NCBI RefSeq assembly: GCF_034092465.1
Contig: NZ_CP139303.1
Coordinates: 496,001 to 560,000 of the forward strand
DNA length: 64,000 nt
Direction of reading: 5' to 3'
DNA from: Prochlorococcus sp. MIT 1223
GTDB lineage: Bacteria > Cyanobacteriota > Cyanobacteriia > PCC-6307 > Cyanobiaceae
Part shown: positions 60,524-63,865 of the stretch, piece by piece
Layout of the letters: every line of letters begins with the position of its first letter
Numbering within the stretch: position 1 is the first letter of the stretch
Notes under the pieces: generated by a model
Databases searched by the model: none
The model's input: the letters and a program-made list of their open reading frames with translations, nothing else
What the model was told of the DNA's origin: nothing
Program-made: the position numbers and the translations under genes

Positions 60524-61375
60524 ATGAAAATTTGGGAATTAGATAAATTAAAAAACTTGCCAAGTTTAAAACTAGCAGTAGTTGGACATGTTGAGTTTGT
60601 AAGATTTCTTTCAGTCGATCAATTGCCAAAAGCCGGTTCAATTAGTCATTCAAGAAGTTACATAGAGGAACCAGCTGGCGGTGGAGCTATTGCTGCGGTT
60701 CAAATGCAAAATCTAACCCAAGCGCAAGTACATTTTTTTACTTCTCTTGGCAAGGATTCAATAGGAGAAAGATGCTATGAACGCTTAAAAGAATTTGGCC
60801 TAACACTCAGAGTGGCTTGGAGGGAGAAAGCAACTAGACAAGGAATTAGTTTTGTCGATTCAAGCGGAGAAAGAGGTATCACCGTAATAGGAGAAAGACT
60901 TCAGCCAAACTCAAGAGATGATCTTCCTTGGGACGAACTTTCTGGATTTGATGGAATATTTTTCACAGCAGGTGATGCAAATGCAATGAAGCTATCTAGA
61001 AAAGCTAAATTTCTATCGGCCACTCCAAGAGTAGGCATAGATGAAATAAATAAATCAGCTGTACAATTAGATGTTCTAATTGGAAGTGGGCTCGACATAG
61101 GTGAAAAATATAATATCGATGAGATAAAAATAAGACCAAAGATGAGGATTTCCACAGAAGGAAGTAAAGGTGGAGAAGTATGGCCAGGAGGACGTTATAA
61201 AGCAGTTAATTTAAAGTCAAAAGTAATTGACACTTATGGGTGTGGAGATAGGTTTGCGGCAGGTGTAACTACTGGAATGGCAGCAGGATGGAACGTTAAA
61301 AAAGCTTTAAGTCTTGGAGCCCATTGTGGAGCAAATTGCACTTCTTACTTTGGTCCTTACATAAATGAAATTTAA
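60524..61375 (+). CDS. PfkB-family carbohydrate kinase
   Basis: Ribokinase/fructokinase superfamily. EPAGGGAIAAVQMQNL in the substrate domain and the C-terminal DTYGCGDRFAAGVTTG with catalytic D242 (PfkB signature 2). 283 aa, somewhat short but complete. Sugar or nucleoside substrate not fixed. Promoter-like TATAAT upstream. Confidence 0.88.
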   Translation: MKIWELDKLKNLPSLKLAVVGHVEFVRFLSVDQLPKAGSISHSRSYIEEPAGGGAIAAVQMQNLTQAQVHFFTSLGKDSIGERCYERLKEFGLTLRVAWREKATRQGISFVDSSGERGITVIGERLQPNSRDDLPWDELSGFDGIFFTAGDANAMKLSRKAKFLSATPRVGIDEINKSAVQLDVLIGSGLDIGEKYNIDEIKIRPKMRISTEGSKGGEVWPGGRYKAVNLKSKVIDTYGCGDRFAAGVTTGMAAGWNVKKALSLGAHCGANCTSYFGPYINEI

Positions 61376-61474
61376 TTAATAATATTCTCTATGAACAAAA
61401 CAAACCATCAGAAAAAATTAACCAAAGAGAAAACGAATAACTTAATTCAAGTTAAAACCAGGAAGGGGGAATCA

Positions 61475-61627
61475 ATGGCGAATATAATATTAATATATTT
61501 AACCATAATAATATTATTTATTGAATCTGTATATATCCTAATTAAAGGAATAAAGAGAGGTATATTCAGAAAAGAAGTACTTACACAAAAAAGTAAACTG
61601 GGTTTTGATATAATAATAAAAGGTTAA
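61475..61627 (+). CDS. Small one-helix membrane protein
   Basis: 50 aa from ATG 61475, chosen because AGGAAGGGGG lies just upstream as a strong ribosome site. One long hydrophobic helix (IILIYLTIIILFIESVYILI) then a basic tail. An in-frame ATG at 61391 would add 28 Lys/Asn-rich residues. No family recognised. Confidence 0.55.
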   Translation: MANIILIYLTIIILFIESVYILIKGIKRGIFRKEVLTQKSKLGFDIIIKG

Positions 61628-61718: not shown

Positions 61719-62096
61719 TTGATAGAGGTCTTAATAATAAAAGTGAAGGAAATCATCATTATTATTATTTTATTTACAATAATAATGCTTATCTCTCAAT
61801 CAAGCAAAAATCAATACATACTTAAAAAGAATTTATTTTTAAAAAGATTCAAGAATAAAGGTAATTTGAGAGAAAAGTTATCAGAAAGATTTTCATATTC
61901 ACTTATGGGAGATCCAGATTCAGATATAAAAATTGGATCTTGGTATAGTGAAATAGAGCTAAGAGAAAAAGCTGATATTCACCGCGCAAGGCTAAGTAAA
62001 TACGGCAGGTCAAAGATGAATGGAGAAATGCTTTATGTTGGTCCCAAAGGAGGAGTATATAAATACAATTCAGATGGCAAGAAAAAATATTTGTAA
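61719..62096 (+). CDS. Small membrane-anchored protein with PBCV-adaptor-like basic C-terminus
   Basis: 125 aa. An N-terminal Ile-rich membrane segment (IIIIIILFTIIMLI), a charged central part, then the motif LYVGPKGGVYKYN...GKKKYL, which resembles the basic adaptor domain named from Chlorella viruses (PBCV). TTG 61719 or GTG 61743 could start it. A TATAAT lies at 61671. Domain name is from memory of the pattern. Confidence 0.68.
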   Translation: MIEVLIIKVKEIIIIIILFTIIMLISQSSKNQYILKKNLFLKRFKNKGNLREKLSERFSYSLMGDPDSDIKIGSWYSEIELREKADIHRARLSKYGRSKMNGEMLYVGPKGGVYKYNSDGKKKYL

Positions 62097-62129: not shown

Positions 62130-62363
62130 CTATTTAATATTTTGCGCTATCTCCTTATATTCTATAAAATCACGATTTGCCCAATGATTAAAATCAGCAA
62201 AACTTAGTTTTTGTTTTTTACCTTCTTTAAGTAATCCATCTCGGTCAGAACTAGAGTTTATCTCAAAGAAAGAGCCTTTTGATATCTTTTGTCTATAGCG
62301 CTTAGCAAGCTTTTCTATAGAGAAACCTTTTGGAGAAGGTCGAGGAGGCCAGAAATTATCCAA
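62130..62363 (-). CDS. Small conserved basic protein, function unknown
   Basis: 77 aa, soluble, highly charged. Start MDNFWPPRPSPKGFSIEKLAKRY; C-terminal part has LSFADFNHWANRDFIEYKEIA. Converges with the adaptor-like gene (33-bp gap). I recognise no domain. Confidence 0.68.
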   Translation of the reverse strand: MDNFWPPRPSPKGFSIEKLAKRYRQKISKGSFFEINSSSDRDGLLKEGKKQKLSFADFNHWANRDFIEYKEIAQNIK

Positions 62364-62480: not shown

Positions 62481-63050
62481 TTAGGCTCCGGGCATAGCAG
62501 GTTTGTAACCCCCACTGGAATCTGCCGCACACTCTAGGCTTTCTCTAGTGCCAACTCCTGTTATGGGGTTTATGCCCTCAGCTATTTTGCATAGATTTTT
62601 CTGGTCATCACTATCAAGGATTGCAAAAGTAAAGTCTGCACCCTCAATTCTTGCACCAGCAAAACTGCTCCCTGAGGCAATCATATTTACAAGAATCGCA
62701 TCTCTTAGATCTGTTTTTTGAAAGTTGACCCTATCAGAAAGTGTATCTGTAAGATTTATTCCTTTTAAATTTGCTCCTTTCAGATCAGAAAGGGTTAAAA
62801 CTGTTCCATGCAAATCTACGTCACTAAAATTTGCATCACGCGCAACTGCTCCAGCAATAGAAGATTTAGATAAATCTTGGCCGTGCAAATCAAAGCCTGT
62901 TATATCAGCACGGACATAATTAGGAACTTCATCTCCTGCTCCAGTTTTCTCAAAGGATGCAAGGGCATAAGAGGTCAATGGAATACTGAATAAAATCAGT
63001 AAAGCCATGACTAATGAAAGAAAGCTTTTTATTTTTAGTTCAAAAAACAT
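62481..63050 (-). CDS. Pentapeptide-repeat protein with signal peptide
   Basis: 189 aa. Signal peptide ending near TSYALA, then about ten A(D/N)LxG-type pentapeptides (for example AVARDANFSDVDLHG and LKGANLKGINL), forming a right-handed beta-helix. Two cysteines lie in the non-repeat C-terminus (LCKIAEG and LECAAD). Likely thylakoid lumen or periplasm. Function unknown. Confidence 0.88.
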   Translation of the reverse strand: MFFELKIKSFLSLVMALLILFSIPLTSYALASFEKTGAGDEVPNYVRADITGFDLHGQDLSKSSIAGAVARDANFSDVDLHGTVLTLSDLKGANLKGINLTDTLSDRVNFQKTDLRDAILVNMIASGSSFAGARIEGADFTFAILDSDDQKNLCKIAEGINPITGVGTRESLECAADSSGGYKPAMPGA

Positions 63051-63526: not shown

Positions 63527-63865
63527 ATGCCATTAATTAAAATTCAGACCTCGCTAAAGTCAATAGATGATTCTGATAAATTTTTAACGGCTCTCTCATC
63601 CGAACTAGCAAAATCAACTGGAAAGCCAGAGAGTTATGTGATGACAATTCTGCAAACAAATATTCCCATGACATTTGGAGGATCTAATGATCCTTCTTGT
63701 TTTATTGAAATAAAATCAATTGGATCATTAAAGCCTGCAGAAATGTCTAAATCCTTTTGCAGTTTAGTTTCTAGAGCCACAAATATTCCTTCAAATAGAA
63801 TATACATTGCCTTTGAAGACGTAAGTCCAAGTAAATGGGGATTTAATGGAAATACCTTTGGATAA
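63527..63865 (+). CDS. MIF (macrophage migration inhibitory factor) homologue
   Basis: 112-aa tautomerase-superfamily protein. After Met removal Pro2 would be the N-terminal catalytic residue (MPLIKIQTSL); the family pattern PESYVMTILQ and IPSNRIYIAFEDVSPSKWGFNG follow. The mammalian CxxC is absent. A Prochlorococcus MIF homologue has been structurally characterised; the physiological role is unknown. Confidence 0.95.
   Translation: MPLIKIQTSLKSIDDSDKFLTALSSELAKSTGKPESYVMTILQTNIPMTFGGSNDPSCFIEIKSIGSLKPAEMSKSFCSLVSRATNIPSNRIYIAFEDVSPSKWGFNGNTFG

Follow-up and report, generated by a model that had tools for sequence, protein, structure and literature searches.

The locus raises the question of what a small membrane protein, the C-terminal tail of which had been likened in an earlier note to the basic adaptor domain of algal viruses (PBCV), does in a cyanobacterial cell and where it came from. 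The window, i.e. the whole stretch of 64,000 nucleotides that was analysed, lies in a genome of 1.80 Mb in a single contig, the relatives of which are Prochlorococcus, the commonest photosynthetic bacterium in the sea, and Prochlorococcus genomes are among the smallest of any free-living phototroph. Despite this small genome, the unannotated membrane protein considered here, hereafter the target, is kept under purifying selection in most Prochlorococcus lineages. The hairpin that forms its tail is common to chloroviruses, other viruses and prophages, and a small, conserved and lineage-wide carrier provides a tractable place to learn what this hairpin binds.

The listed open reading frame 61719-62096 (+) comprises 125 codons with a TTG start and ends with MLYVGPKGGVYKYNSDGKKKYL. 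It is a real gene and not a chance open reading frame, because the target profile finds matches in 42/151 genomes of the window's bacterial family, 161 stretches encoding a relative were retrieved in a scan of the genome collection, and the median dN/dS is 0.134 (920 close pairs), which indicates purifying selection. The C-terminal 45 codons are the slowest, with a median dN of 0.018 vs 0.045 overall. The start is uncertain; the GTG at 61743 (117 aa) is favoured over the TTG at 61719, because the orthologues are 116-124 aa long. A promoter and terminator scan gave no more signals than shuffled sequences. The features of the locus are collected in Table 1.

Table 1. Features of the target locus and example paralogues (positions in the window; for the paralogues, positions in their own loci L126 and L123).
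Feature	Position	Strand	Basis or remark
Target gene	61743..62096	+	GTG start most likely, 117 aa; start inferred from orthologue lengths
N-terminal transmembrane helix KEIIIIIILFTIIMLISQ	61746..61799	+	Hydropathy; C side more positive in 32/32 orthologues; AF2 helix 2-37
Basic juxtamembrane stretch and second helix	61800..61901	+	Cytosolic side by the positive-inside rule; helix 39-56 in the AF2 model
Conserved core, LMxDPxxNI then helix LREKADIHRARLxKxG	61902..62003	+	Most conserved part of the family; pLDDT 92-96
C-terminal four-strand hairpin GRSKMNGEMLYVGPKGGVYKYNSDGKKKYL, PBCV-basic-adaptor-like	62004..62093	+	Profile scores, AF2 model, structure superposition
PfkB-family sugar kinase	60524..61375	+	Opens the same-strand run; PF00294, 70.2 bits
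mem78, small single-span membrane protein, no known family	61391..61627	+	Between PfkB and the target
Basic 77-aa protein, no family	62130..62363	-	Conserved downstream neighbour in many low-light-type lineages
Pentapeptide-repeat protein	62481..63050	-	Conserved synteny marker
Example paralogues	L126:1973-2221, L123:2016-2300		Membrane-anchored, HxxRL-hairpin module, Cys end

The Ile-rich membrane helix described in the earlier note was borne out together with the reading frame itself, as the segment is membrane-spanning in 32/32 aligned orthologues, in which the best 19 residues have a mean hydropathy of 2.42. In the same 32 orthologues, the net charge is +0.2 before the helix vs +7.0 in the 20 residues after it, the C side being the more positive in 32/32; by the positive-inside rule, the C-terminus is thus predicted to be cytosolic and the N-terminus outside. 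The protein as a whole has a pI of about 9.9 and a charge of about +12. AlphaFold2 (AF2), applied to 32 sequences, yielded a mean pLDDT of 86.6, with 92-96 in the C-terminal domain, in which the helix LREKADIHRARLxKxGRS and the subsequent four-strand hairpin are confidently predicted. In the model, helix 70-87 (LREKADIHRARLSKYG) is followed by the strands 89-92, 95-99, 105-108 and 114-116, with a GPKGG turn between the second and the third. A fold search of the PDB with the model gave no significant match, the listed hits having meaningless TM-scores of about 0.2, and no relative of solved structure was found by sequence.

The residues P58, I62, K76, I79, H80, R83, L84, S90, G112 and Y116 are invariant and are mostly located in the helix-hairpin; none falls in GPKGG, the constant part being the helix plus G..Y. 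The window's clade and several further lineages carry GPKGG or a close variant, unrelated turns take its place elsewhere, and at least three changes are required on a weakly resolved tree of the family. Within the target family, GPKGG is dispensable. As this is the part common with viruses and it comes and goes, whatever GPKGG binds would either not be essential or have changed.

The assignment of the tail to the PBCV basic adaptor family (PF08789, curated cut-off 20.4 bits) survives in part. The HMM check went against it: the window protein has no match to PF08789, nor did a PF08789 search of the window's own genome find any, and hmmscan of the target vs Pfam, PHROGs and NCBIfam gave no confident match at a meaningful E-value. 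Weak matches to DUF4446, DUF3278, FtsH_ext and similar families were rejected as sub-threshold and not common to the orthologues. On the other side, when 121 whole genomes were searched with PF08789, the match fell on the target orthologue in four of them (G101, 18.8; G126, 18.6; G089, 17.2; G063, 14.3 bits), and a trimmed relative reached 14.6 bits, but none of the orthologues found attained the cut-off, the best being that of G101 with 18.8 vs 20.4 bits. When predicted structures were compared with a viral structure library by Foldseek, A0A7S9SUP8, M1H517 and Q84496, proteins named as PBCV adaptors, superposed on the target hairpin with 0.8, 0.8 and 1.2 Å at probabilities of 0.99, 0.96 and 0.80; the E-values are 0.13-0.55 because the alignment spans only 23-24 residues, and the best superposition (0.8 Å, E 0.13) shows 48% identity over 23 columns. 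The target and the PF08789 members are alike in being basic and in the C-terminal core GPxGGxYx5GxKxY, which is present in the window protein in a form that matches the strict pattern, but is lost in many orthologues; the predicted hairpins superpose with 0.8-1.2 Å over 23-24 columns. Unlike those members, the target is bacterial, joins the hairpin to an HxxRL helix of its own and to a membrane anchor, does not conserve the motif in its family and, according to Pfam, has no kinase domain and thus no fusion to a chlorovirus-type Ser/Thr kinase. A further likeness concerns phrog_2459, a phage protein without assigned function (171 positions), the C-terminal 20 positions of which repeatedly match the target tail (E 0.012-0.05); it is limited to the tail and sub-significant. 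It is fair to call the target tail PBCV-adaptor-like, with membership in PF08789 not established.

How far the hairpin extends beyond the target was assessed with the strict pattern GPxGGxYx5GxKx[YF] on DNA, the reversed pattern, used as a control, giving no match. The motif was detected in 13/292 sampled genomes of the phylum, that is in 13/36 of the window's family and in 0/256 others, and among the class genomes outside this family sub-threshold PF08789 matches occurred in 3/255. Several of the strict matches are small unrelated Synechococcus-type proteins (open frames of 69-123 codons), the hairpin of which lies in the C-terminal end or close to it; in three genomes, such proteins exceed the PF08789 cut-off (G025, 28.8; G035 and G111, 25.3 bits). 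Such GPRGG-tailed proteins (e.g. L166, L168, L169, L322, L331) belong to the window's bacterial family and possess a target-like C-terminal hairpin, but no LREKADIHRARL-type helix is evident and their gene neighbourhoods are others; no phage source was found for their tails. In viral contigs, many of which are probably prophages of cultured bacteria, the strict pattern is present in at least 120 stretches, nearly all of them C-terminal tails of varied proteins, with GPRGG tails added to SH3, SNase, HNH, Excalibur and lipoprotein-type proteins. Such use of the hairpin as a C-terminal addition to varied viral and prophage proteins is as expected of an adaptor.

The resemblance to the PBCV adaptor might nevertheless be convergent, as short hairpins with a Gly turn and basic strands can arise repeatedly. 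This would fit with a GPKGG turn that comes and goes in the target family, with the window protein lacking a PF08789 match and with structural matches at E 0.13 or worse. We consider convergence unlikely, although it is the most serious of the alternatives, since unrelated small proteins of the window's family pass PF08789 with 25-29 bits and the domain hence exists in the lineage; moreover, the four genomes in which PF08789 lands on the target orthologue, the close superposition with almost half of the columns identical and the absence of the strict motif from all 256 sampled genomes outside the family speak against it.

GPRGG hairpin tails on small Synechococcus-type proteins are also found at L171-L173, L320 and L330, and some proteins of the whole set pass PF08789. 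A separate case is L326:1495-2781 (G392), which lies close to a small SNase-like gene and encodes a Prochlorococcus protein of 428 aa that has a membrane helix as well as a GPRGG tail at the C-terminus; its 437-codon frame scores 21.1 bits, over the PF08789 cut-off. The one phage match of this tail was at chance level and was discarded.

A search with the single sequence located the target in 13/60 relatives. The best 80 of the 161 stretches cited above all derive from Prochlorococcus genomes, one of them titled Synechococcaceae. The gene order alpha/beta hydrolase, MFS carrier, DUF2834, PfkB kinase, mem78, target, basic 77-aa protein and pentapeptide protein is kept, and all larger neighbours are present even in the most diverged loci (L049-L093), a group that by our reading is of the high-light type; the basic 77-aa gene was not detected in these. 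Because gene order is kept across Prochlorococcus, the target is an old, vertically inherited chromosomal gene. No target was found at the PfkB loci of Synechococcus-type genomes and, within the sampled genomes, the target, like its helix-hairpin module, looks specific to Prochlorococcus. At L343 (G011), mem78 and the basic minus-strand gene are present with no target in between, although other members of the genus retain it, which is a lineage loss.

The earlier note had also pointed to small membrane or basic proteins as neighbours and to a small-protein pair. Both observations hold up: the flanking genes upstream and downstream (mem78 and the basic 77-aa protein, Table 1) occupy the same places in relatives, and mem78 is co-conserved with the target in 41/42 target-bearing genomes, adjoining it in 35 and located elsewhere in 6. 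In total, mem78 occurs in 46/151 genomes of the family (one weak match left out), including the diverged group, and carries the C-terminus (R/K)KEVLTxKSxLGFDIIIK, also given as KKEILTxKSNLGFDIxIK. Five genomes (G011, G017, G029, G062, G064) have mem78 without the target and one (G077) the target without mem78, while in G080 stops break mem78 and the target is intact. The association of the two genes is suggestive, shared ancestry confounding their co-occurrence.

A profile of the 45-residue helix-hairpin finds, besides the target, two groups of short paralogues, each with an N-terminal membrane helix: proteins of 82 aa ending with CYYYSATGRKIFC (L126/L128-L130) and proteins of about 95 aa ending with YYLSEEGDKVYC (L123/L125/L127/L131). 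Like the target, they combine this helix with a C-terminal HxxRLxxFxxS...hairpin, which ends with GDKVYC or GRKIFC; unlike the target, they have neither the LMxDPxxNI stretch nor the GPKGG turn, end in Cys and reside at other loci. The full module is present in 16/291 class genomes, all of the window's family, and in 0/255 elsewhere. With a membrane helix, an H-x-x-R-L helix, an S and a G-x-K-x-Y hairpin, the target displays the features by which we define the HxxRL-hairpin family. As both short paralogue groups also begin with a membrane helix, an anchor plus the module is the architecture common to the target and its paralogues. Overall, the target is a lineage-specific orphan that varies a known type of small domain. 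A bolder proposal, which we regard as doubtful, sees in the module a distinct adaptor domain of the membrane surface, which would have originated within Prochlorococcus when the HxxRL helix and the membrane anchor were added to a PBCV-adaptor-type hairpin pre-existing in picocyanobacteria; it would then have reached three or more paralogue groups, which together with mem78 would form a lineage-specific system of small membrane proteins.

No established function of the hairpin in bacteria was found in the literature. Tentatively, and as a possibility rather than a probability, we propose that the target is a membrane-tethered cytosolic adaptor, the docking role and topology of which we infer. 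As a single-span Prochlorococcus membrane protein with the N-terminus out and the C-terminus cytosolic, it would present the small basic helix-hairpin module at the cytosolic membrane face, where the module may act as a docking unit for a protein or nucleic acid of the cytosol, which would thereby be kept at the membrane; mem78 would work together with the target. The adaptor reading draws by analogy on the likeness of a hairpin that is only some 23 residues long; it agrees with the data, because the module is the conserved part, the paralogues share anchor and module, and in other proteins the related hairpin is plugged in as a C-terminal unit.

Small size, a single span and lineage restriction, all of which apply to the target, are typical of regulatory subunits of membrane complexes. 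The target might hence be such a subunit of a larger photosynthetic, transport or protease complex, with the module packing on a larger membrane protein, and mem78 as a conserved small partner would suit this role. Yet no neighbour (PfkB, MFS carrier, DUF2834, pentapeptide, alpha/beta hydrolase) is a known complex component, and we judge a regulatory subunit rather improbable.

Less probable still is a role in tethering nucleic acids, in which the basic flank and the module of the target would keep DNA or RNA at the membrane in the way that chlorovirus adaptor proteins remain with viral DNA. The chlorovirus proteins A278L and A282L, kinases with a basic adaptor, co-purify with viral DNA and are found in the DNA-bound fraction (PMC3281028), but the DNA contact of these kinases has not been mapped to the adaptor. 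Similarly, the high pI and charge of the target are in line with nucleic acid binding, but the positive-inside rule also gives high charge beside the helix. Prophage carriers of the tail include SNase and HNH nucleases, yet many further carriers are of the SH3 or lipoprotein type and have no connection to DNA.

A recent viral or mobile origin of the target gene, considered possible in the earlier note and suggested by the frequency of the motif in viral and prophage contigs, is contradicted by the fixed chromosomal synteny across Prochlorococcus, by purifying selection and by the searches of IMG/VR and INPHARED, which yielded relatives neither for the whole protein nor for the module, and is most improbable. 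Further downstream, the window encodes a MIF/tautomerase-family protein at 63527-63865 (PF01187, 80.2 bits).
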